Assembly: GCF_000384475.1 (NCBI RefSeq)
Contig: NZ_ARWB01000001.1
Location: 2,460,176-2,524,175 of the forward strand
Length of the DNA: 64,000 bases
Direction: 5' to 3'
DNA from: Methylopila sp. M107
GTDB taxonomy: Bacteria; Pseudomonadota; Alphaproteobacteria; Rhizobiales; Methylopilaceae
The position numbers were made by a program, and so were the translations under genes. The notes beneath the pieces were generated by a model. That model did no database searches, was not told the DNA's origin, and saw only the letters and a program-made list of their open reading frames with translations. Shown piece by piece: positions 18,733 to 31,578 of the stretch; position 1 is the first letter of the stretch, and the number at the start of each line of letters is the position of its first letter.

Positions 18733-20217
18733 ATGGCGGACTATTTCCCAGTCATCTCGCGCGCGGTCTCCGGTCTCGATCCGAACACCGGGGAGGCGCG
18801 CCGAAAGGTCTATGAGCGCGCGCGCGCCGCGATCGTGAAGCAATTGCGCGCGATCGACCCGCCGGTGGCCGAAGAGGACATCTCGCGCGAGCGCATGCAG
18901 CTCGAGGAGGCGATCCGCCGCGTCGAGGCGGAGGCGGCCGGCCGCGAGAGCCCTGCGTCGCCCGCGCCCGCCGCGCCGAAGCCGGCCGCGCCGAGGGTCG
19001 CCGATCCCCAGCCCGCTCCGAAGGCGCCGGTCTCGGCTGCGCCCCAGCGGCCGTCCGCCCCGATCTCCAGACCGGCCGCAGAGCCTGGTCCGTCCGGCCC
19101 CGCGAACGACAAGGCCGCGCCCCGTCCGGCGAAATCCGGCCCCGCGAAACGCGCGGACGGACGCCCCATCGTCCAGCCGGGCCGGGACGCCAGAAGCGGC
19201 TCCGGAAACAAGCCCTCCGCGGGCAAGCGGTCCGCGCCCGTGATCGCGCTCGGCGCCCTCGCCGTCATCGCGGTCGTCACCGGCCTGTTCGCGGCGCGCG
19301 GCCAGATCGCGGCGCTGTTCTCGGGCGGCGCGCCGACCGAAGTGGCCCAGACGCCGGCTGAGACCAAGCCCGGCGGCGAGCAGGCGCCGGCCGCGCCGCA
19401 GGCCGAGACCAAGAGCGACGACCGCCTGCCGCAGGAGCAGGCCGCGCAGGACCAGCAGGCCCCGGCGCCCGCCGCCCAGGACGCGCCTGAGCCGGACAAG
19501 GCCGAGCCGCAGACGCCGGCGGCCCCGCCCGCCGCCGAGGCGCCGGCCCCGCAGGCCGAGCAGCAGGCGCGCGCCCCCGAGGCGACAGAGCCCGCGCCAG
19601 CCCCGTCGCCGGCTCCCGCGGCTCCGTCCGACGCCGCCCAGCCGGCGGGCCCGCTCGTGGCGCAGCGCGCCGTGCTCTATGAAGAGGGGCCGAACCAGCA
19701 GTCCGGCGAGGCGCTTACGGGCTCGGTGCTGTGGCGCACGGAATCGGTGAGCGGCGGCTCGAACCAGCCGCTGGACACCGCGCTCCGGGGCGAGATCGAG
19801 ATCCCCGCCCGCAACCTGCGCGCCGTGGTGACCATCCGCCGGAACGCCGACGCGACGCTGCCGGCGAGCCACACGATCGAGGTCCAGTTCAAGCTGCCGC
19901 CGGACTTCCCCAACGCCGGCGTCTCGAACGTGCCGGGCGTGCTGATGAAGACCGACGAATCCGCGCGCGGCGCGGCGGTCTCGGGCCTGTCCGTCAAGGT
20001 GACGAACGGCTTCTTCCTGATCGGCCTGTCGAATGTCGACAGCGAGAAGTCGGTCAACGAGCAACTGCTGCGCGACCGCAGCTGGATCGACATCCCGATC
20101 CTCTACGACAACGGCCGCCGCGCCGTGCTGACGCTGGAGAAGGGGACGCCCGGCAAGCAGGCCTTCGACCAGGCTTTCGACGCCTGGAAGAGCGCCTCCA
20201 CCGCCCCGCGCCCTTAA
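18733..20217 (+). CDS. Pro/Ala-rich single-pass membrane protein, function unknown
   Basis: A 494-residue protein in four parts. Residues 1-75 are a helical cytosolic head (MADYFPVISRAVSGLDPNTG and a coiled-coil-like RERMQLEEAIRRVEAEA). Next comes a Pro/Ala-rich linker, then one membrane helix near residue 180 (APVIALGALAVIAVVTGLFA). After a second long Pro/Ala/Gln linker, a folded C-terminal domain of about 170 residues starts at VAQRAVLYEEGP. As far as I recall, similar proteins follow purA in other Hyphomicrobiales, but no function is established. The topology suggests it spans the periplasm or peptidoglycan. Confidence 0.75.
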   Translation: MADYFPVISRAVSGLDPNTGEARRKVYERARAAIVKQLRAIDPPVAEEDISRERMQLEEAIRRVEAEAAGRESPASPAPAAPKPAAPRVADPQPAPKAPVSAAPQRPSAPISRPAAEPGPSGPANDKAAPRPAKSGPAKRADGRPIVQPGRDARSGSGNKPSAGKRSAPVIALGALAVIAVVTGLFAARGQIAALFSGGAPTEVAQTPAETKPGGEQAPAAPQAETKSDDRLPQEQAAQDQQAPAPAAQDAPEPDKAEPQTPAAPPAAEAPAPQAEQQARAPEATEPAPAPSPAPAAPSDAAQPAGPLVAQRAVLYEEGPNQQSGEALTGSVLWRTESVSGGSNQPLDTALRGEIEIPARNLRAVVTIRRNADATLPASHTIEVQFKLPPDFPNAGVSNVPGVLMKTDESARGAAVSGLSVKVTNGFFLIGLSNVDSEKSVNEQLLRDRSWIDIPILYDNGRRAVLTLEKGTPGKQAFDQAFDAWKSASTAPRP

Positions 20218-20610: not shown

Positions 20611-21777
20611 TCAAAGCGGCTTCGAATACATCCGCCAGGTCTTGGTGTGTTGGGCCGGCATGCCGCGCACCAGATTGATGATCGGGCGGTTCTCCTCGAG
20701 CATCCAGCTGACCTCCAGCCGTTCGACGCCGGCGCCCTTCGCCTTGGTCAGCGAGTCGGCCAGCAGCATGGCCGCCGTCATCGCCCCGACGCGCGTGCCG
20801 CGATACGCGCGCCGCACGCCGATCAGCGGCACACGGGCGCGGCTGACGCCGGAAACCTTGAGGCGCCACAGCAGCTTCGCCCAGCCGAACGGCACCAATC
20901 GTCCGCCGAGGTCGCGCACGGCCTCGTTGACGTCCGGCACCATGACGATCATGCCGATCGGTTCGCCGAGCCAGAAGGCCAGCGTCGACCAGTCGCTCGG
21001 CAGGACGTCGGCCGCGAGCTCGGCCAGGAATTTCGATTCCTCCATCGTGGAGGGCACCGAACCCCAGTTGTCCGCCCAGGCGTCGTTGTAGATCGACAGC
21101 ATCTGGCCGAGCGCGTCGGGCCCGACGGCGGGCCGCAGCTCCAAATTCTTGCCGTCGGCCCATCGCCCGCGGGCCCGCGCCACGCGCTGCGGCAGGCGGC
21201 TGGTCGGGACCGCCCCCTCATAGCCGACAATGTCCTTCACGCCGCGGAAGCCGAGCCGCTCGAGCTGCTTTGCGTAGTAGGGCGGCGCGTAGTTGGTGTG
21301 GGTCGTCGAGCGGTTTCCGTAGCCGAAGACCTGCAGCCCGCATTCGTGGTTGACCGAGGCGCAATAGGGCCCCGCGATCTGCGTGAGCCCGCGCGCGCGC
21401 AGGAAGTCGGAGGCGGTGTCGAACAGCGCGTCCCAGACGGCGTCGTCGTCGATCGCCTCCAGGAAGCCGAAATGGCCGGCGCCGTCCTTGTGCTTCTCCA
21501 GATGCGCGTGATGCTGCACGGCGTAGATCCGCCCGACGGGCTTGCCGTCGCGGAACGCCGTCCACGACATGCCGTCATTGGCGCGCGCGAACGGCGTCGC
21601 GAGCGGCGGCATGAAGTCCTTGACCTCCTTGTGGAGGCGCGGCGTGAAGGCGGGATCGCCGCCCTGCGCGACGAGCTCCGCCTTCCAGAACGCGTCGACG
21701 TCGCGCACCGTTTCGAGCGGGCGAACCTCGATGCCGCTTGCGGCGGTCTTGCCTGCGGTTCGCTGGGCGGTGGCCAA
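20611..21777 (-). CDS. GNAT-fold acyltransferase, candidate ceramide-synthase-type N-acyltransferase
   Basis: A 388-residue protein with a C-terminal GNAT domain. The acyl-CoA/ACP loop is GVRRAYRGTRVGA near residue 325, followed by LEVSWMLEENRPIINL and a final KTWRMYSKPL. The larger N-terminal half (DAFWKAELVAQGGDPAF; GPYCASVNHECGLQVFGYGN) fits a family often labelled dATP pyrophosphohydrolase or N-acetyltransferase. From memory, the Caulobacter bacterial ceramide synthase belongs to this type. It starts ten bases after the oxoamine synthase stop, so it belongs to the PKS operon. I infer N-acylation of the amino-ketone product, which is untested. Confidence 0.7.
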   Translation of the reverse strand: MATAQRTAGKTAASGIEVRPLETVRDVDAFWKAELVAQGGDPAFTPRLHKEVKDFMPPLATPFARANDGMSWTAFRDGKPVGRIYAVQHHAHLEKHKDGAGHFGFLEAIDDDAVWDALFDTASDFLRARGLTQIAGPYCASVNHECGLQVFGYGNRSTTHTNYAPPYYAKQLERLGFRGVKDIVGYEGAVPTSRLPQRVARARGRWADGKNLELRPAVGPDALGQMLSIYNDAWADNWGSVPSTMEESKFLAELAADVLPSDWSTLAFWLGEPIGMIVMVPDVNEAVRDLGGRLVPFGWAKLLWRLKVSGVSRARVPLIGVRRAYRGTRVGAMTAAMLLADSLTKAKGAGVERLEVSWMLEENRPIINLVRGMPAQHTKTWRMYSKPL

Positions 21778-21787
21778 TTTCCCGGCT

Positions 21788-23179
21788 CTACCGCGTCGCC
21801 TTGGCGAGCGCCGCCGCCATCTTGAAGCCGAAGCCGGCCTTGGCGAGATTGTCGAGTTCGTCGGCCGTCACGGCGACCGCCTCGTCGATCTGCTCGAAGG
21901 TGTGGTCGGCGGTCAGGAAGTATCTGAGCCGCGCCGCGCGCTCCGGCACGGCCGGATGCACGATCGGCAGCGCGTTGACGCCGCGCTCCCGCAGCTTGTT
22001 GGCGAGATGCACGGCGCGGAGCGAATCGCCGATCATCACGGGCACGATCGCGGTGCCGCTCGCGGTGCCGACGTCGAGCCCGCGGGCCTTGGCCTGCTCG
22101 ACGAAGCGCAGCCCGTTGGCGCGCAGCTTGGTCACGCGCTCCGGCTCGCGCTGAAGGATGTCGAAGCACGCGATCGCGGCGGCCGCGACCGCCGGCGGCA
22201 TGCCGACCGAATAGACGAAGCCGGGCGCGGAGAACTTCAGATATTCGACGAGGCTCTGCGAGGCCGCGATGTAGCCGCCGCAGCCGGACAGCGTCTTGGA
22301 GAGCGTGCCCATCCAGATGTCGACGTCCCGCGGGTCGACGCCGCACTCCTCGGCGATCCCGCCGCCGGTCTCGCCCAGCACGCCGAGCGAATGGGCCTCG
22401 TCGACCATCAGCCAGAAGCCGTAGCGGTCGCGCATCTTCACGAGGCGCGCGAGGTCGGGGAAGTCGCCGTCCATCGAATAGAGGCCCTCGACCGCGACCA
22501 GCACGCGCTCATGCGCATGGGCCTGCTGGATGAGGATTTCTTCCAGCGCGTCGAGGTCGTTATGGGCGAACATGCGCCGCGCGGCGCCCGACAGCGTCGC
22601 CCCGACCACGATCGAGTTGTGCGCAAGCGCGTCGTAGACGATCAGGTCGTTCTTGCGCATCAGATGGCCGATGGCCGAGACGTTCGTGGCGTGGCCCGAC
22701 ACGAACACGACGGCGTCGTCGGTCCCGTAATAGGACGCGATCCTGCCTTCGAGCTCCCGGTGGATCAGGCGTTCGCCCGCGACCACGCGGCTTGCAGAAG
22801 CCGAGACGCCGTAATGGTCGATCGCGGCCTTGGCGGCGGCGGCGACCTCCGGGTGCCCATTGAGGCCGAGATAGTTGTAGGACGCGAAGTTGATCAGCGT
22901 CTTGCCGTCGAGCTGGATGGTGGCGCCGGCGCAGCCGTCATGCAGGGCGAAGAACGGGTTCTGCACGCCGAGGAGGTCGCCGACCGCCTGCTGGGTGCGG
23001 ACGTCCTTCAGCTCCGGCAGGTCGGCGAAGCGGTCGCCGCGCTTGACCTTGCGCGTCACGATGGTCGGCGTCGGCCCCGAGCGCGCCGCCGGCTCCTGCT
23101 TGGGCTGGGTGCGGATCGCGCCCAGGATGCCGTCCTTCGCGGAGCGCGAAAGCGCCCCGATGCCACGTCGTTCGCTCAT
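21788..23179 (-). CDS. Alpha-oxoamine synthase (serine palmitoyltransferase / KBL / AONS type)
   Basis: A 463-residue PLP enzyme that condenses an acyl thioester with an amino acid, with loss of CO2, to give an alpha-amino ketone. Visible marks are FASYNYLGLNGHPEV near residue 85 (the SYNYLG block is typical of serine palmitoyltransferases), VDEAHSLGVLG, and the PLP lysine in GTLSKTLSGCGGYIA at about residue 297. An extra N-terminal segment of about 75 residues precedes the core. It lies ten bases after the PKS, which has no thioesterase, so it probably takes the chain from the PKS carrier protein. The amino acid partner is not readable. Confidence 0.88.
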   Translation of the reverse strand: MSERRGIGALSRSAKDGILGAIRTQPKQEPAARSGPTPTIVTRKVKRGDRFADLPELKDVRTQQAVGDLLGVQNPFFALHDGCAGATIQLDGKTLINFASYNYLGLNGHPEVAAAAKAAIDHYGVSASASRVVAGERLIHRELEGRIASYYGTDDAVVFVSGHATNVSAIGHLMRKNDLIVYDALAHNSIVVGATLSGAARRMFAHNDLDALEEILIQQAHAHERVLVAVEGLYSMDGDFPDLARLVKMRDRYGFWLMVDEAHSLGVLGETGGGIAEECGVDPRDVDIWMGTLSKTLSGCGGYIAASQSLVEYLKFSAPGFVYSVGMPPAVAAAAIACFDILQREPERVTKLRANGLRFVEQAKARGLDVGTASGTAIVPVMIGDSLRAVHLANKLRERGVNALPIVHPAVPERAARLRYFLTADHTFEQIDEAVAVTADELDNLAKAGFGFKMAAALAKATR

Positions 23180-23189
23180 GATACCGCCG

Positions 23190-26100
23190 TCACGCGTTCG
23201 CGCGTCCCATAGACAACCGGCGCGCCTCAACGGCTTCGCCGAACTCGGCCAGTTCTTCCTCGCCAAGTTCGTCGCTGATGTGGCGGCTGGCGAGTTCGGC
23301 GTTGACCGCCCCGCTGTCCGCGCCTGCGTCCGGTTCGTGAATGCGCGACACGATCGACTGGGCGATCGTGAGCAGCGTCGTCGAATCGCCGATCGCGACG
23401 AGCGGCAGCTCGATATCGAAGCGCCTCTCGACGCTCATGCGCAACTCCAGACCCATCAGCGAATCCATGCCGAGTTCGGCGAGCGGCCGCTGCGGCGAGA
23501 TTTCCTTGGCGGGAAGCTTGAGGATACGCGCGACTTCGCCGGTCAGCACCTCGGCCACGATGTCGCGGGCCTCGCGGGCGTCCTTGCCGCGGATCAGAGC
23601 GCCGAGGTCGATCTGCTCGCCGGTGTCCTGCGGACCCATCTCGGCGTCGGCCAGAACCTGGGTGAAGGTCGGGCTGCTGAGATAAGCGAGGTCGCGGCGC
23701 GCCCCGCCCCAGTCGATCGGGGCGATGGTCACGACGCCGGTCACGAGACGCATGTCGCGCTGGGCGAGCACGCGGCCGAGACCTTCGAGCGCTTCCGCGC
23801 CAGACAGCGTGGCGTAGCCGAGCCGCTTCTGGATCTTCTCCTTCACCTCGCCGGTGCGGGCGAGATAGCCGACGTCGCCGAGCGCGCCCCAGGCGATCGC
23901 AAGGCCCGCCTTGCCCGACGCCCGGCGCTTGCGCACCAGCCCTTCGAGCCAGGAATTGGCCGCGACGTAGTTCGCTTGTCCCGGATTGCCGATGACCGTG
24001 GTTGCCGAGGAATAGACCACGAAATCGCCAAGCTTGTCGTCGCGCGTCAGCTTCTCGAGCGCGGCCGCGCCGTCGATCTTCGGACGGAGCGCGACCTCGA
24101 AGGTCGCCTCGTCGAGGTTGGCGAGCAGCGCGTCGTGCAGCACCATGGCGACGTGCCAGGCGCCGCCGATCGGGCCGAGCTCGTTCCGGGTCTCCTTCAG
24201 CGCCTTGTCGAGCGCCTTTTCATCGGCCGCGTCGCAGGCGAACACCTTGACGGTCGCGCCCGCCGCCTCGAGCCGCTTCACGCCTTCCTTGGCGGCGGCG
24301 CTCTTGGCGCCCGAGCGGCCGATCAGCGCGAGCTTGGTCGCGCCCTTGGCCACCAGCCATTCGGCGGTGGCGAGGCCGAAGCCGCCGAGGCCGCCGACCA
24401 TGACGTGCACGCCCTCGGCCGGGGTCCAGGCCGCAGGCTCCGCCGCCGGCAGCTTCGCCGGATCGAGCGGACGCACCACGACCTTGCCGATATGGCCGGA
24501 CTGCTGCATCAGCCGGAAGGCGTCGCGGATCTCGCCCGCCTCGAACACCCGGTACGGCAGCGGCGCGAACACGCCCTTGCCGAACTGCTTCAGCACGTCC
24601 GTGAACAGCCGCTTGCCGAGGTCGCGGCGGTGGATGAACAGCTGGTCGGTGTCGATGCCGAAATAAGCGATGTTGCGGCGGAACGGACGGAGGCCGAGAC
24701 GGGAGTTCGCGTAGTAGTCGCGCTTGCCGAGCTCGAGAAACCGGCCATAGGGCTTCAGGGTCTGGAGCGAACGCTCCATCGCCTCGCCGAACAGCGAGTT
24801 CAGCACCACGTCCACGCCCTGGCCGCCGGTGAGGCGCTTGGTCTCGTCGACGAAGTCGAGATTGCGGCTCGACAGCACATGGGTCGCGCCGAGCGCGCGC
24901 AGCAGGTCGCGCTTCTCGTCGGAACCTGCGGTCGCGATGACCTTGCAGCCCTTCCACAGCGCGATCTGCAGCGCCGAGAGCCCGATGCCGCCCGCGCCGC
25001 CATGGATCAGCACCCACTCGCCGCGACGCACGCGCGCGAGTTCGACGAGCGCGTAATACGAGGTCAGGAAGCAGACCGGGATGGTCGCGCCTTCCTCGAA
25101 GCTGATCGAATCCGGCAGCTTCGCGACGGCGAGCTCCGAGGTCACGACGCGGGAGGCGAAGGAGCCGGACGCGAAGGCCGAGACGCGGTCGCCGACCTTC
25201 AGATCCCGCACGCCCTCGCCGACGGCCGAGACGACGCCGGCGCATTCGATGCCGAGGCCAGGGCCCGAGAAGCCGTCCTCCAGCGCCTCTTCGGGCAGCA
25301 GGCCGAGCGCCCACATGACGTCGCGGAAGTTGAGGCCGACGGCCGAGACGTCGACCGCGACTTCGCCCTTGCCCGGCGCGCGGGCGGGCGCGGCGCGCCA
25401 GCCGAGATCGTCGAGGCCGCCTTCGTTCGATTCGAGCGCGGCGACGCGGGGCGCCTTGGCGCCCGTGGCGGTCTTGGCCGCGGCGACTTCCGGGAGGCCC
25501 GGACGCAGGCGCGGCGCGCTGACGCCCTCGGGACCGATCGCGATCTCGATGTCGGCGCGCGGGGCGTCGATCTCGGATGCGACCGCAGCGGCCGCCGTCT
25601 TCGCGGCGAGCGCCGCGTCGACGTCGATCAGGCGGATGTCGGTGCCGCGGAACTCGTTGCGGACGACGCGCAGATAGCCGCCGATCGCGGCGTTATCGAG
25701 CCGGTCGCGGTCCTGGCCCAGAGCGCCCGCGAGGCTGCCGGGCGCGACGACCCAGAGGCGCGCGCCCGCGGCCTGCGCGGCGCGCGTGAGGCCGAGCAGC
25801 TTGCCGGCGCGCTCGGTCACGGCGACCGATCCCGCGACTTCCGCGGCGTCGAGCGTCACGACGATGTCGGCGGTCGGCTCGCTCGCGCCCTTCGGCGCCG
25901 GCGGCAGGCCGAGGTCGACGACGGCGCCCCAGGCGCCCGCCGCATGGCCGTTGCCGTTGGCGTGGCCGTTCGACGTCGCGCCGGCCTTGGCCTGCTGCGC
26001 GAACCCGTCCGGACGCGCCTGGACCCGGCGGCCCTCGCTTTCGAGCGCCGCCGCGATCGCCTTGGCGAGCGGGCTGACCGCGGTTTCGCCGATGAGCAGG

Positions 26101-29100
26101 ACCGGGGCTTCGCTCGGCCGCGCATGGGCCTCGGCGCCGGTCGCGCGGCGCTTGGAGGCGATGACGAGATTAGTGGGCGATTCCGCGTCGAAGAGCGGCG
26201 CGACCAGCGCGTCGATCAGGCGGGCGTCCGCGAGGTCGGCGGTCCAGTCCTCGGCCGAGCGGGCGTCGCCGACGGGGAAGTCGGCGGAGACCGAACGCGA
26301 GAACCAGCCGTCCTGCAGGCCGAACACCACGTCGAGGAACGGCGTCGGCGCTAGCGCCGCGAGCGCGAGACGCCCGCCGTCCGACAGCCGCGCCGCGAGG
26401 CGGCGCACCGCCTCCGGGCTTGCGGTCGAGGCGCCCCAGGCGAGCGAGCCGACGATCAGGTCGACGGCCTCGCCGCTCGCCTCGGTCGCCGGGTCGAACT
26501 GCTCGACCTTGATGTTGGGCAGGCTCGCGAAGGCGAAGCGCAGGCGCTCCGCCGCGGTCGCGTCCGGATCGGTGACGGTGAGCGTCACGCGCGGGTCGGC
26601 CGCCAGCCGCGACAGCCCGCGGGTCAACCCGCCGGAGCCCGCCGCGATCTCGAGAATGCGGATCGGCCGATCGGCGGGCGCGGCCGCCACATAGTCGGAG
26701 ACGAGCGCCGCCAGCGCTTCGGCGGCGCGCGCCGTCAGCGGCGCGCCGCCGCCGGCATGCGCGATGGTCGAGGAGCCGTAGACCTTTTCGCGCGGGCCGT
26801 CCTTCAGGATGGTCGGCAGCAGCGAGGACGCGCGGGAGGCGAGCACGACTTCCGCGCCGCGCTCCGGATGGTCGGCGAGCACGGTGCGGATGATGACGTC
26901 GGTCGACGGCAGGCCGGTCGAGGCCGCGAGCGTCCAGGTCTCGCCCGCAAGGCTCGCATGACCGCGTTCCTCGAGCAGGCCGAGCAGCCGGTTCGCGATC
27001 GGAAGCGAAGCTTCCGCGAGCTTGCCCTTCTTGACCAGCGCGGCGACGGAGCCCTCGCGCTTGCGTCCAAACAGCTTGGTCAGCGCCTGATGGGCGGCCG
27101 CGACCGCGAAGGCCTCGAGCATAAGGTCGGCTTCGGGCCGCTCGTCCTCGTCCGATCCGATCAGGCCGAGCGCCTCGGCGCGGGCCTTGAGGTCGACGCC
27201 TGAGTCGGCGTCGCCTGCGTCGAGCGCCGGCGCGATCAGCGCGGGCGCGACGTGATAGGCGAGCCGGTCGAGCGGGGTGCGGCGCGCCAGCGTCACGGCG
27301 CGGAAGCGCGCGTCGGCGAGTTCCGCCACCACGCCGCCGTCGGCGTCGAGGAACGTGAATGTCGCGTCGATCGAGCGCGGGCTGAAGCGGCGGATCACCA
27401 CCTCGGCGCCGATCAGCGTCTCGCCGGGCTTGTAGAGACGGAGCTGCCCGAAGCGCATCGGCAGGTAGGTCACGTCCGGCCGGTCGCCATGCTCGCCGAA
27501 CAGCGTGATCAACGAATGGAAGCAGGCGTCGAAATCGGCCGGGTGCAGGCCGTAGCGCTCGTCGCGCGCGCCCTTGCGGTCCTCGACCGGCTTCAGCCGG
27601 ACGGACAGGCGCGACAGGCCGAAGCGCTTCACTTCCGCGACGCACTGGAAGGCCGGGCCGAAGTCGAGGCCGTGCTCGAGCGTCCGCGCATAGAGCGCCT
27701 TGCCCTCGAACAGCTCGGGCTCGCCTACGCCCGGCTTGGGCACGAAGACCTGCGTGGTCGGAGCCTGCGAGATGCGGCCGATGGCGTGCACCACCCAGCC
27801 CTCGTCGCGCAGGCGCGGACGGCTCAGAATCTCGACGGTGCGGCTCTCGGGCGAGACGCGGGTCTTGATCTCGGTCAGGGCGTCGGGATCGAGGGTGAGC
27901 GCGTGCGGAATCTCGAAATCCGCGAGCTCGACCATGTCCTGCTTCAGCCAGCCGCGGCCGGCCGCGAGCGCCATTTCGGCGAGCGCGGCGCCCGGCACGA
28001 CGACGCGGCCGCCGACCTTGTGGTCGGCGATCAGCGGCGACAGCGCCGGATCGAGGTGGATGGTCCACTCATCCATGTCGGGGCGCAGCCGCGCGCCGAT
28101 CAGCGGATGAACGTCGTAGCCGCGATAGAAGCCGGCCTGCTCGGCCGTGGCGGTGACGGCGAAACGGCTCTCCTGCCACGGATAGGTCGGCAGCCGGACA
28201 GCCGGGCCCGTGAGCCTGCCGAAGGCGAGGTCGCGGTCGACCTTGCCGCCCTTCGCGACGACGCGCGAGAGCGTGCGGCGGATCGTGTCGTGCTCGGCCG
28301 CGCCATGGTCGTCGCAGGAGACGACGCCGCCGGTGACTTCCGCCGAGGCGAGGCCGTCGGCCAGATAGGTCTGCAGCACGGGCCGCGGGCCGATCTCGAC
28401 GAACACGCGCGCGCCGGCCTTGATGGCGCTGGCGGCCGCGGCCGCGAAGGCGACCGGCTGGCGGACGTTCGCCCACCAGTAGTCCGCGCCGAGGTCGGCG
28501 CCCTCGAGCGCCTCGCCCGTGACGCTCGACACGAACGGGCGTTCGGTCGCGCGCGGCTTCAGGCCCCGCAGGTCCTCGAGCAGCGGCTCGCGCACGCCGT
28601 CGATCAGCCCGGTGTGGAACGGATATTCGATGTCGAGCACGCGCACGGGGACGCGCTTGGTGCGGGCGAACTTCGCCAGCGCCTTGATCGCGTCCTCGGG
28701 GCCCGAGACCGTGATCGACCGCTCGCTGTTGACGGCGGCGATCTCGACGCTCGTGAAGCCGCCTTCCTTCAGCAGCTTGCCGGTCTCTTCGGCCGACTGA
28801 AGCACGGCCGCCATCGAGCCCGCCTTCCAGGCGATCTCCTGGTGGACGGAGCGCGAATGGATGACCTCGACGCCTTGGCGCAGCGTGAGCGCGCCGGACG
28901 CGACCGCAGCCGCGACCTCGCCGACCGAATGGCCGAGCACGAAGTCGGGCGTGACGCCGGCGGCGGCCAGCGCCGCCGCCATGCCGACCTGCACCGAGAA
29001 CAGCAGCGGCTGGGCGTATTCGGCGCGCTTCAGGCGCTCCGGCAGGTCGTCGGCGAACATGGCGTCGGCGATCGACCACGGCGCGATCTTGGAGAAATGC

Positions 29101-30806
29101 GCGTCGACCTCGGCGATCTTGTCGCGGAAGGCCGGGTTGGTCTGGTGCAGCTTGCGGCCCATGCCGGCCCACTGCGAGCCGTTGCCCGAGAACGCGAAGG
29201 CGACCGGAACGTCGCGGCCGGCGGCCTGCTCGACTGCGGCGCCCGCCGCTTCCCCGCCCGCCGCGAAGGCCGCGAGGGTCGGTCCCCATGTCGAGGCGTC
29301 GTCGCTCTCCAGCACCAGACGGCGCGGGAGCAGGTCGCGGGTCGCGGCGATGCTGGTCGCGACATGGCGGGCCGAGGCCGCGTCGCGGCCTTCGAGCGTC
29401 GTGGCGTAGGAGGCCGCGAGCGCCGCGAGCGCCTCCTGCGAGCGGGCCGAGAGCGCGAGCACCGGGGTGCGGCCTTCCGCTTCGACGACGCGGGGCGCGG
29501 CCTTGCCGGCGCGGTCCTCGGGCGTCGGGTCGCACAGGATGACGTGCGCGTTGGTGCCGCCGAAGCCGAACGAGTTGACGCCGGCGTAACGCTGGCTGGC
29601 GCCGCGCGGCAGCTTCACCGCCTTGGTCGCGACGTGGAGCTTCAGCTCGTCGAACGGGATGTCGGGGTTGAGCTCGGTGACGTGCAGGCTCGCCGGGAAC
29701 AGGTCGTTCTCGAGCGACAGGTCCGCCTTGAGCAGGCCGACGAGGCCGGAGGCCGGCTCCAGATGGCCGACATTGGTCTTGACCGAGCCGATCGGCAGCG
29801 GACCGACCGTCCGGCGCTTGATGGCGGCGCCGATGGCGTTGGCCTCGGCCGGATCGCCGACGCGCGTGCCGGTGCCGTGCGCCTCGATGAAGGCGAGGCT
29901 GTCGGGGTCGACGCCGGCCTCGACATAGACGCGCTCGAGCAGGCTGAGCTGCGCTTCCGGAGAGGGGAGCGACATGCCGACCGTGCGGCCGTCCGAATTG
30001 ACGCCGGAGGCCGCGATCATGGCCCGCATCGGGCGACGCGCCGCGCGGGCGAGATCGGCGCGCTCGATGACGATCGCGACGCCGCCCTCGGAGCGGACAT
30101 ACCCGTCGCCATTGGCGTCGAAGGCGTGGCAGCGGCCGCGCGGCGACAGCATCGTGGCCTGCGCGAAAGAGATGAACGGATAGGGGCTCGCCAGGATCGA
30201 AACGCCGACCACGACGGCGCGCTCGATGCGCCCCGAACGGATCGCCGCGACCGCCTCGTTGAGGGCGACGAGCGAGGACGAGCAGGCGGTGTCGACCGTG
30301 AAGCTCGGACCGTGGAAATCGTAAATGTACGAAATACGATTTGATACGATCGAGAGCGTATTTCCGGTCGCGAAATAGGCGTCGGCCGAGCTCGGGTCGA
30401 AAATGATGCGGTTGCCGTAGTCGAGCGACGACGCGCCGACATACACGCCGGTCTCGCTGCCGGCGATCGAGGAGGGCGGAATGCCTGCGTCCTCGAGCGC
30501 TTCCCAGACGAGCTTCAGCGCCATGCGCTGCTGCGGGTCCATCTGCTCGGCCTCGCGGGGCGAGACGCCGAAGGCGGCCGGATCGAAGCCGAAGACGTCG
30601 TCGAGGACGCCCGCCGCGAAGGTGTAGCTCTTGCCAGGCTCACCCTTGCGCGGATGCAGATAACGCGCGTGGGACCAACGATCTTCGCCGATTTCCGTGA
30701 CGGCGCAGCGACCCTCTTCGAGCAGCTTCCAGAAGGATTCCACGCTGTTCGCGCCCGGCAGCCTGCAGGCCCGCCCGACGATCGCAAGTCCGGTCTGTTT
30801 CGTCAT
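23190..30806 (-). CDS. Highly reducing type I polyketide synthase, single module
   Basis: A 2538-residue megasynthase. In order: KS (about 5-430; Cys in DTACSSS near 174, HGTGT near 309, KTNVGH near 346); AT (540-830; GHSVGE near 625, YPFH suggesting malonyl-CoA); DH (905-1180; HKVGGRVVVP near 929, Asp in HPADFDACFH); C-methyltransferase-like (1350-1550; LEIAAGSGG near 1389); a structural region; ER (1840-2130; HGGAGGIG near 1937); KR (2140-2330; GGLGGFG, Tyr in NYVAAN near 2282); and one ACP (LGMDSLM, Ser near 2446). There is no thioesterase or reductase. All key residues seen are intact, so it should act iteratively and fully reduce its chain. The start MTKQTG is preferred over MFGLM four codons earlier. 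Confidence 0.95.
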   Translation of the reverse strand: MTKQTGLAIVGRACRLPGANSVESFWKLLEEGRCAVTEIGEDRWSHARYLHPRKGEPGKSYTFAAGVLDDVFGFDPAAFGVSPREAEQMDPQQRMALKLVWEALEDAGIPPSSIAGSETGVYVGASSLDYGNRIIFDPSSADAYFATGNTLSIVSNRISYIYDFHGPSFTVDTACSSSLVALNEAVAAIRSGRIERAVVVGVSILASPYPFISFAQATMLSPRGRCHAFDANGDGYVRSEGGVAIVIERADLARAARRPMRAMIAASGVNSDGRTVGMSLPSPEAQLSLLERVYVEAGVDPDSLAFIEAHGTGTRVGDPAEANAIGAAIKRRTVGPLPIGSVKTNVGHLEPASGLVGLLKADLSLENDLFPASLHVTELNPDIPFDELKLHVATKAVKLPRGASQRYAGVNSFGFGGTNAHVILCDPTPEDRAGKAAPRVVEAEGRTPVLALSARSQEALAALAASYATTLEGRDAASARHVATSIAATRDLLPRRLVLESDDASTWGPTLAAFAAGGEAAGAAVEQAAGRDVPVAFAFSGNGSQWAGMGRKLHQTNPAFRDKIAEVDAHFSKIAPWSIADAMFADDLPERLKRAEYAQPLLFSVQVGMAAALAAAGVTPDFVLGHSVGEVAAAVASGALTLRQGVEVIHSRSVHQEIAWKAGSMAAVLQSAEETGKLLKEGGFTSVEIAAVNSERSITVSGPEDAIKALAKFARTKRVPVRVLDIEYPFHTGLIDGVREPLLEDLRGLKPRATERPFVSSVTGEALEGADLGADYWWANVRQPVAFAAAAASAIKAGARVFVEIGPRPVLQTYLADGLASAEVTGGVVSCDDHGAAEHDTIRRTLSRVVAKGGKVDRDLAFGRLTGPAVRLPTYPWQESRFAVTATAEQAGFYRGYDVHPLIGARLRPDMDEWTIHLDPALSPLIADHKVGGRVVVPGAALAEMALAAGRGWLKQDMVELADFEIPHALTLDPDALTEIKTRVSPESRTVEILSRPRLRDEGWVVHAIGRISQAPTTQVFVPKPGVGEPELFEGKALYARTLEHGLDFGPAFQCVAEVKRFGLSRLSVRLKPVEDRKGARDERYGLHPADFDACFHSLITLFGEHGDRPDVTYLPMRFGQLRLYKPGETLIGAEVVIRRFSPRSIDATFTFLDADGGVVAELADARFRAVTLARRTPLDRLAYHVAPALIAPALDAGDADSGVDLKARAEALGLIGSDEDERPEADLMLEAFAVAAAHQALTKLFGRKREGSVAALVKKGKLAEASLPIANRLLGLLEERGHASLAGETWTLAASTGLPSTDVIIRTVLADHPERGAEVVLASRASSLLPTILKDGPREKVYGSSTIAHAGGGAPLTARAAEALAALVSDYVAAAPADRPIRILEIAAGSGGLTRGLSRLAADPRVTLTVTDPDATAAERLRFAFASLPNIKVEQFDPATEASGEAVDLIVGSLAWGASTASPEAVRRLAARLSDGGRLALAALAPTPFLDVVFGLQDGWFSRSVSADFPVGDARSAEDWTADLADARLIDALVAPLFDAESPTNLVIASKRRATGAEAHARPSEAPVLLIGETAVSPLAKAIAAALESEGRRVQARPDGFAQQAKAGATSNGHANGNGHAAGAWGAVVDLGLPPAPKGASEPTADIVVTLDAAEVAGSVAVTERAGKLLGLTRAAQAAGARLWVVAPGSLAGALGQDRDRLDNAAIGGYLRVVRNEFRGTDIRLIDVDAALAAKTAAAAVASEIDAPRADIEIAIGPEGVSAPRLRPGLPEVAAAKTATGAKAPRVAALESNEGGLDDLGWRAAPARAPGKGEVAVDVSAVGLNFRDVMWALGLLPEEALEDGFSGPGLGIECAGVVSAVGEGVRDLKVGDRVSAFASGSFASRVVTSELAVAKLPDSISFEEGATIPVCFLTSYYALVELARVRRGEWVLIHGGAGGIGLSALQIALWKGCKVIATAGSDEKRDLLRALGATHVLSSRNLDFVDETKRLTGGQGVDVVLNSLFGEAMERSLQTLKPYGRFLELGKRDYYANSRLGLRPFRRNIAYFGIDTDQLFIHRRDLGKRLFTDVLKQFGKGVFAPLPYRVFEAGEIRDAFRLMQQSGHIGKVVVRPLDPAKLPAAEPAAWTPAEGVHVMVGGLGGFGLATAEWLVAKGATKLALIGRSGAKSAAAKEGVKRLEAAGATVKVFACDAADEKALDKALKETRNELGPIGGAWHVAMVLHDALLANLDEATFEVALRPKIDGAAALEKLTRDDKLGDFVVYSSATTVIGNPGQANYVAANSWLEGLVRKRRASGKAGLAIAWGALGDVGYLARTGEVKEKIQKRLGYATLSGAEALEGLGRVLAQRDMRLVTGVVTIAPIDWGGARRDLAYLSSPTFTQVLADAEMGPQDTGEQIDLGALIRGKDAREARDIVAEVLTGEVARILKLPAKEISPQRPLAELGMDSLMGLELRMSVERRFDIELPLVAIGDSTTLLTIAQSIVSRIHEPDAGADSGAVNAELASRHISDELGEEELAEFGEAVEARRLSMGRANA

Positions 30807-30979: not shown

Positions 30980-31008
30980 TCTATCAGAGCTTTGGGTTGG
31001 GCTGTCAA
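30980..31008 (-). promoter_or_regulatory. Candidate promoter of the PKS operon
   Basis: On the minus strand, a perfect TTGACA (31003-31008) is followed at 17-base spacing by GATAGA (30980-30985), giving a leader of about 165 bases. The -10 is weak. The 317-base gap between the PKS and the phasin-like gene otherwise holds a strong GC hairpin (31009-31036) and no gene. Confidence 0.4.
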
Positions 31009-31036
31009 GCGCGGCCCGGACGCGGTCCGGCCGCGC
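31009..31036. terminator. GC-rich hairpin between the phasin-like gene and the PKS
   Basis: GCGCGGC-CGGAC and GTCCG-GCCGCGC pair with one bulged C. It could end the phasin-like transcript (minus strand), but no T-tract follows. Confidence 0.3.
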
Positions 31037-31123
31037 GACGGGGACCCCGAAGCGGCCGGAACCAGCCAGGAGAACCCATCTCCAGATACCGCTTTCTCGC
31101 TCGACGACCCGGCCGGCGGCGCC

Positions 31124-31468
31124 TCAGCGCGACAGGCGCCTGGCGTTCGCCCTGAGCTTGCGCGCAGCCGGCTTCAGCGCCGCCTCGCCGGCCGACACCA
31201 TGATGTGGCCGGCCGCGACCGGGCTCGGCGCCAGCGCAAGGCCGGCGAGCGCGCGGCTCGCCGCGAAGCCGCCTTCCATCACGGCCGACATCTTCTCGCT
31301 GACCATCCGCTCGGCTTCTTGAACGCCCGCGAAGGACGGCTGTCCGGCCATCTGGGCGAGACGGGTCGCGACCACGAATCCGGCCGAAGGCGCCAGGGCG
31401 GCGAAACCGCCCGCGAAGGCGGCCTGCCGGCGCCAAAGGTCCAGCAACTCGAAAAACTCGCCGGTCAT
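31124..31468 (-). CDS. Phasin-like small helical protein
   Basis: A 114-residue, mainly helical amphipathic protein. EAERMVSEKMSAVMEGGFAASRAL resembles phasin family helices (quoted here as ERMVSEKMSAVMEGG and AASRAL). The tail is basic (KPAARKLRANARRLSR). An excellent ribosome site, GAGGAGACCTCA, precedes MTGEFFELLDLW and fixes the start against longer frames. Phasins coat polyhydroxyalkanoate granules, but this assignment is tentative because no granule genes are nearby. It is upstream of the PKS on the same strand but probably a separate unit. Confidence 0.6.
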   Translation of the reverse strand: MTGEFFELLDLWRRQAAFAGGFAALAPSAGFVVATRLAQMAGQPSFAGVQEAERMVSEKMSAVMEGGFAASRALAGLALAPSPVAAGHIMVSAGEAALKPAARKLRANARRLSR

Positions 31469-31578
31469 TGAGGTCTCCTCGGCCCCGCATCCGCGACGGA
31501 CGCGATCGAAGGAGCCGTATTCGGCAGACGGGCACAGGACTACCGCGCGCGCCATCGGACCTTCGTCTGGCATACCTA

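Follow-up and report, generated by a model that had tools for sequence, protein, structure and literature searches.

What do three closely packed genes of Methylopila sp. M107, encoding a polyketide synthase (PKS), an alpha-oxoamine synthase (AOS) and a GNAT-type N-acyltransferase, make, and where would the product be used? A preliminary description of the window, that is, the whole 64-kb stretch of DNA analysed, had proposed a sphingolipid-like membrane lipid built from a polyketide. This idea stands in outline, but because RkpJ-like, LtaS-like, dehydrogenase and export genes are present in the same genome, a capsule lipid is at least as likely as a bulk membrane lipid. On balance, we regard the operon as a capsule-type (RkpA-RkpG, SgaA-SgaB) sphingoid-base synthase to which a dedicated N-acyltransferase has been added and which would make a ceramide-like lipid, perhaps a capsule anchor. 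The gene content and kinship behind this reading are solid, and genes, order, conservation, kinship, motifs and co-occurrence are described below as they were observed.

Layout and conservation of the operon

The ten-base packing of the three genes was confirmed together with their coordinates (Table 1); the gaps between PKS and AOS (23180-23189) and between AOS and GNAT (21778-21787) are each exactly 10 bases. The search for conserved triads proposed in the preliminary description found PKS, AOS and GNAT in the same order in each of the 13 genus genomes searched (the PKS was clipped by the edge of the stretch in four), which argues that the arrangement is not due to chance. In the other genomes of the genus, the GNAT protein is 62-86% identical to that of M107. 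Neither the GNAT (E up to 0.001) nor the AOS (E up to 1e-75) was found in five genomes of the same family outside the genus. Among named records, the closest GNATs come from Methylopila, Hansschlegelia, Chenggangzhangella and a record labelled Chelatococcus sambhunathii.

Table 1 Features of the operon and of the unlinked rkp-like unit (positions in the window unless given in Mb)
Feature	Position	Strand	Remarks
PKS gene	23190-30806	-	start ATG at 30806; open frame extends to 30875
KS domain	29679-30785	-	Pfam; Cys-His-His present
AT domain	28338-29198	-	Pfam; GHSVGE ... YPFH
DH domain	27291-28109	-	Pfam; HxxxGxxxxP and DxxxH present
Methyltransferase-like domain	26367-26654	-	Pfam; SAM-motif stretch EIAAGSGG fits E-x-[GA]-x-G-x-G
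ER domain	24474-25373	-	Pfam and motifs
KR domain	23877-24413	-	Pfam; S-Y-N present
ACP domain	23358-23549	-	Pfam; DSL
RkpG-type AOS gene (PLP-dependent)	21788-23179	-	start ATG
bCerS-family GNAT N-acyltransferase gene, RkpG-linked clade	20611-21777	-	start TTG
SDR, RkpJ-like, LtaS-like and polysaccharide exporter (RkpU-like) genes	3.426-3.433 Mb		LtaS-like and exporter genes on opposite strand to RkpJ-like and SDR genes

On its flanks the operon has purA, a conserved ORF that matches no Pfam family, a gene for an EamA transporter and one for a formate-tetrahydrofolate ligase. Divergent from the PKS lies a small ORF (30992-31471, plus strand), which has no Pfam match and has matches of 45-47% in 7 of 16 genus stretches, some of which stop short of it; it may be a real gene. 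ARAGORN called a tRNA-Ser at 19725-19816 (plus strand) within the ORF at 18733-20217, but Rfam at gathering thresholds detected no RNA in the window, so this is probably a false call.

The PKS and its methyltransferase domain

Among the 20 Pfam families matched by the PKS are KS, AT, DH, methyltransferase (MT), ER, KR and ACP in this order, and none of the 20 is a thioesterase, terminal reductase or condensation domain; both the domain order and the lack of a release domain had been read correctly in the preliminary description. As a single-module reducing PKS with a terminal ACP and no release domain found, it matches the first member of an RkpA-RkpG or SgaAB-type pair. The catalytic motifs of KS, AT, DH, ER, KR and ACP are all present by the usual motif rules; by such a rule, the AT motif is presumably of the malonyl type.

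Identity of the PKS to RkpA of Sinorhizobium meliloti is 57% in the KS and falls to 24% in the stretch of the MT and linker. The pattern E-x-[GA]-x-G-x-G was found in 6/6 rows from the genus (five) and Aquibaculum as against 0/13 other PKS rows, including S. meliloti RkpA; the underlying motif table had 20 rows, 19 of them with residues at the MT (L063 had none), after L045 and L047 failed the KS-motif filter and L048, L122 and L133 proved too short. L039 and L060 are nearly identical, so not every row compared counts as independent. Pfam recognised an MT in the window PKS and in L053, L055 and L038, also in L042, L061 and L134 (the last barely over one cut-off), and not in RkpA, the Shinella PKS or the Pseudomonas PKS. 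Between members of the genus, identity in the MT core is 59-86%, similar to the values for AT (71-78%) and DH (68-82%). Because the MT motif looks intact, the chain may be C-methylated.

We also considered a rule that an intact MT goes with a linked GNAT, and this rule failed. The PKS of L134, an AOS-GNAT locus, has a broken MT motif, which we count against our main reading, and L134 as well as L042 and L061, the latter two without a linked GNAT, still pass a Pfam methyltransferase cut-off.

Placement of the AOS

The second gene encodes an AOS that is 56% identical to S. meliloti RkpG and 33% identical to the gene in the SPT position of an E. coli plasmid cluster. In a tree of 53 rows, hand-thinned from 90 extracted ones, the AOS fell inside a 30-row RkpG-type clade (support 100/99), and the AOS of the genus was the sister of S. 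meliloti and Shinella RkpG (99/92). The PKS is thus adjoined by an AOS that groups with RkpG, as in an RkpA-RkpG or SgaAB-type pair. Seventeen SPT rows and L090 formed a separate group (100/98), and BioF, KBL and HemA, represented by two, one and one rows on long branches, also stood apart. The PKS-AOS pair of a Pseudomonas plasmid (L059), a stand-in for PfSgaB, which is itself absent from the tree, fell in the RkpG-type clade, and several AOS relatives stand in capsule clusters.

The AOS remained below the cut-off of every NCBIfam model that it matched: 312, 277 and 227 bits with three SPT models (cut-offs 640, 500 and 670), 360 bits with bioF (426), and 330 and 277 bits with glycine C-acetyltransferase models (460 and 493). 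These scores, together with the position outside the SPT clade, rule out a canonical SPT, and they likewise rule out BioF (AONS) or KBL, from both of which the AOS is separate in the tree. Of the preliminary claim of an SPT-like synthase, the route to a sphingoid base by PKS and AOS is thus plausible and membership in the SPT clade is not; its own counter-case, a grouping with AONS or KBL, did not occur. Two points speak against our reading. The bioF model gave the highest NCBIfam score, although S. meliloti RkpG behaves likewise with close scores, and Spt homologues outside the Spt-like clade are treated as probably not sphingolipid enzymes in the available part of PMC11334938.

An AOS that uses glycine, alanine or another amino acid would yield a 1-deoxy- or other amino-ketone lipid and no true sphingoid base, and the AOS indeed reaches none of the NCBIfam cut-offs by which its substrate could be fixed. 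We hold such a product to be unlikely, given that PfSgaB, though absent from our tree, has SPT activity with L-serine that is nearly exclusive over alanine and glycine (PMC12134224, in part), and that the PLP-lysine region of the AOS aligns with SPT, albeit equally well with KBL. We think it very probable that the product of the PKS-AOS pair is a keto long-chain base.

The GNAT protein and the ceramide synthase family

The third protein matches Pfam weakly (Acetyltransf_6, 24.3 bits with a cut-off of 22; Acetyltransf_1, 20.4 bits with a cut-off of 20.7), and a PDB search with its sequence gave no match at E up to 1. The relation to bCerS suspected in the preliminary description was nevertheless borne out: its identity is 34% to E. 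coli YghO across 367 aligned columns (E 1e-64), with homology along most of the protein's length, and 32% to a paralogue in a second, ordinary ceramide cluster of the same genome. An excerpt of PMC9386255 lists yghO and Caulobacter CC_1154 as one N-acyltransferase gene, and bCerS is described as cytoplasmic and as acting ahead of the reduction (PMC11087976, in part).

GNAT relatives were extracted as 117 rows, 15 hits being lost to a stop codon in the matched stretch or to short length. A first tree had 84 rows (83 of the 117 plus L153, with L133 dropped as a fragment); to these 11 rows and the full L133 were added, while L137 and L193 were left out. In the resulting unrooted tree of 96 rows, whose bootstrap had not fully settled, the operon GNAT, 11 other rows that adjoin an RkpG-type AOS, and L132 formed one clade (100/100). 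An operon-linked clade with the same support stood out in the unrooted first tree as well, and again in an unrooted 36-row tree that included YghO. GNATs were labelled as linked by the higher-scoring query (operon GNAT versus the genome's own bCerS) and then checked for context, in which 12 of 13 adjoin an RkpG-type AOS and L132 starts at a contig end. These GNATs linked to RkpG-type AOSs are a clade apart from the SPT-linked ones, either nested in the bCerS group or sister to it, so their function may differ, which counts against our reading. The GNATs of L157 (Legionella massiliensis) and L159 (a Pseudomonadota MAG) also count against it, as they fall outside the operon-linked clade.

The clusters of L157 and L159 each contain an AOS, an SDR gene, a capsule-type gene, an LtaS-like gene and a bCerS-family GNAT; the AOS of L157 lies near the base of the RkpG-type clade.

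A search with the operon's GNAT alignment, biased in that its patterns were derived from operon-type GNATs, gave 101 GNAT relatives. Among the best 80 of them, an RkpG-type AOS stands immediately upstream in 17 (the genus and Aquibaculum account for 12 of these), 35 have an SPT in the stretch, two have another AOS, and in 26 no AOS was detected. Besides the genus and Aquibaculum arenosum, adjoining AOS-GNAT pairs were found in five alphaproteobacterial assemblies. The PKS lies upstream of the pair in the genus, in Aquibaculum and, as a fragment, in L165; it lies downstream in L133 and L134, and the fetched stretches of L140 and L153 contained no PKS. GNAT-linked AOSs occupy three places in the AOS tree, suggesting that gain, movement or loss of the association happened repeatedly.

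In six loci of Desulfotignum, Desulfobacula and Nitrospiraceae (L186, L191, L192, L195, L196 and L197), a PKS-like stretch is preceded, at a distance of about 2-3 kb, by a bCerS-family GNAT, which makes a further PKS-GNAT association. These stretches are 27-36% identical to the RkpA-type or operon PKS, and the GNATs are outside the clade studied.

In a sample of 289 genomes of the class, 13 carried an RkpG-type AOS (E up to 1e-75), and two of the 13 had a linked GNAT in the fetched stretches. Most RkpG-type AOS loci thus lack a linked GNAT, so that the known capsule role would not require N-acylation; this counts against our reading. Any GNAT of the family co-occurred with the AOS in 7/13 genomes as against 34/276 others (p 6e-4; 6/12 and p 0.002 with the M107 genome excluded).

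The GNAT might instead acylate another amine, with the lipid released as the free base in the manner of the SgaAB sphinganines, and the separation of AOS-linked from SPT-linked GNATs would fit this. We consider it quite improbable, as the GNAT directly adjoins the AOS in several lineages, keeps the residues that are invariant in an alignment of 34 family members, and belongs to a family that otherwise occurs with SPT. N-acylation by the GNAT is the likely reaction.

An ordinary ceramide cluster in the same genome

The M107 genome has an ordinary ceramide cluster of its own (L035), with an acyl-AMP ligase, an ACP, an SPT, a lipid-kinase-like gene, a CDP-alcohol transferase, two LptF/G genes and the second GNAT. 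Its SPT scored 677.9 bits with NF047599 (cut-off 500), and a GNAT stands beside the SPT in 5/5 genus genomes whose second locus was fetched (L035, L115, L116, L117 and L119). The same set of ceramide genes is annotated in Roseomonas, and a Caulobacter lipid kinase has been described (PMC10331486, in part). The possibility that the operon is the only sphingolipid-type cluster of the genome is ruled out by this cluster, and the operon therefore represents an additional pathway.

No close CerR homologue was found in the M107 genome with two queries, an SDR of Roseomonas, taken as CerR by its position, and an E. coli epimerase; the best matches covered 225 of the 318 residues of the first at 33% identity and 205 of the 304 residues of the second at 30%. 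This counts against our reading. The SDR next to the RkpJ-like gene was accordingly taken as the candidate ketoreductase, solely on the basis of its location.

rkp-like genes elsewhere in the genome

The unlinked rkp-like unit lies about 0.94 Mb from the operon on a single 4.45 Mb contig. Its RkpJ-like gene matches Pfam Capsule_synth and is 44% identical to S. meliloti RkpJ, which itself reaches 193 of the 600 bits required by the KpsS model, a point against our reading. The same holds for the LtaS-like gene, which by Pfam is only a sulfatase-family gene; a Caballeronia gene annotated as LTA synthase family shares 34% identity with it. The RkpJ-like gene is present in 13/13 genus genomes (4 of the 13 matches cross a stop codon), and its neighbourhood contained the SDR and LtaS-like genes in 10/10 cases and the exporter in 8/10.

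The RkpG-type AOS and an RkpJ-like gene (E up to 1e-50, 16 genomes) occurred together in 8 of the 13 AOS genomes of the class sample versus 8 of the 276 others (Fisher p 1.3e-8, related genomes not being independent); without the M107 genome the figures are 7 and p 1.5e-7. In Aquibaculum arenosum, which has PKS, AOS and GNAT, an SDR gene and an RkpJ-like gene adjoin on the other strand; in an Acetobacteraceae MAG the order is AOS-GNAT-RkpJ.

Counterparts of rkpH (SDR), rkpI and rkpJ were not found beside the operon within the window, and no capsule gene adjoins it in the genus. This, which counts against our reading, and the membership of the GNAT in the bCerS family would suit an operon that makes a free ceramide-like lipid of the outer membrane, unrelated to capsule. 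We give this explanation a minor share of our belief: the genome already has an ordinary ceramide cluster with SPT, ACP, acyl-AMP ligase, lipid-kinase-like, LptF/G and second GNAT genes, several AOS kin stand in capsule clusters, every genus genome has the RkpJ-like gene, and RkpJ-like genes lie beside AOS-GNAT in Aquibaculum and the Acetobacteraceae MAG. We lean slightly towards a capsule role.

Proposed pathway and implications

We infer every enzymatic step, the use of serine, methyl branching and a role in capsule from the genes. The single-module PKS would act iteratively, using its own ACP to assemble a long, reduced acyl chain that may be C-methylated at some steps. The AOS would take the chain off the ACP and join it to an amino acid, most likely L-serine, in a decarboxylative condensation; the resulting 3-keto long-chain base would be N-acylated by the GNAT to a keto-ceramide. 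The unlinked SDR may then reduce the ketone, followed by a putative transfer of phosphoglycerol by the LtaS-like protein, transfer of Kdo by the RkpJ/KpsS-like protein, and export by the exporter; the final lipid would serve as anchor or carrier of a capsule-like polysaccharide. KpsS adds the first Kdo to phosphatidylglycerol (PMC12220298 and PMC10148158, in part), and strains with PfSgaAB also make lipids proposed as phosphoglycerol sphingolipids (PMC12134224, in part); the two transfers suggested here would join these observations.

A more specific version, in which an iterative PKS with a working C-methyltransferase makes methyl-branched bases, an RkpG-type AOS releases them, a dedicated subfamily N-acylates them and the branched ceramide is the capsule anchor, is tentative and on the doubtful side. 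If true, it would suggest that the lipid of the rhizobial rkpA-rkpG genes is a sphingoid base. The operon connects the rhizobial rkp capsule genes, the PKS-derived sphinganines of 2025 and the bacterial ceramide synthases, for which we found no prior link among the literature searched. If our main reading is correct, loci of the rkpA-rkpG type become testable sphingolipid pathways, genome surveys that use SPT alone would miss them, since the AOS is below the cut-offs of three NCBIfam SPT models, and bacteria of this group are predicted to make two kinds of ceramide.

Comparison with known systems

The fungal fumonisin system has the same PKS domain order in Fum1 and release by an AOS, Fum8, and is eukaryotic. 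The preliminary description pointed to it for the release route; the nearest precedents that we found are bacterial, namely the rkpA-rkpG/wcbR capsule clusters and PfSgaAB.

The rkp-1 region of S. meliloti has the order rkpA-rkpG-rkpH-rkpI-rkpJ (PMC7902896, in part), and its record reads as a divergent polysaccharide export gene followed by PKS, AOS, SDR, an unannotated sulfatase-family frame and a capsule gene. The Burkholderia gene wcbR and rkpA are handled as one family in the accessible text of PMC3908369. The operon resembles rkp-1 and the wcbR-type clusters in PKS length and domain order and in the AOS directly after the PKS, and the SDR, sulfatase/LtaS-like and RkpJ-like genes of rkp-1 also have counterparts in the Methylopila genome. 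Unlike the operon, the S. meliloti stretch has no GNAT of this family and RkpA no recognisable MT; in Methylopila, the remaining rkp-like genes are at a second locus and the capsule link is predicted from the genes.

In Pseudomonas fluorescens MYb115, the PKS and AOS of PfSgaAB make C24-C28 sphinganines (PMC12134224, in part). The likeness lies in the PKS-AOS pair and the PKS-derived sphingolipid route, MYb115 being known here by description rather than sequence; the difference is that its products are sphinganines and the proposed phosphoglycerol sphingolipids, with no ceramide-synthase gene mentioned in the available part of that paper. Its main text contains none of the words rkp, GNAT and acetyltransferase. 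The stand-in L059 has a 200-aa GNAT gene, and nothing in this cluster scored as high as 60 bits against either the operon GNAT or the bCerS of the M107 genome.

With the ceramide pathway of Caulobacter and E. coli B (spt, acpR, aasR, epi/cerR and aca/bCerS, the last being CC_1154 or yghO), the operon shares the N-acyltransferase family and an AOS-family enzyme fed by a carrier protein; the SPT of that pathway favours acyl chains bound to a carrier protein (PMC9386255, in part). There, however, free fatty acid supplies the acyl chain via AasR and AcpR rather than a PKS, the SPT belongs to another clade, and Methylopila has such a cluster besides the operon.

Among the matches listed in open-licence PMC literature (titles and starts of abstracts), no PKS-AOS-bCerS operon was described. 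A bacterial sphingolipid made by a PKS has already been published (PMC12134224, in part); the new part is a dedicated ceramide-synthase branch on a PKS-AOS operon.
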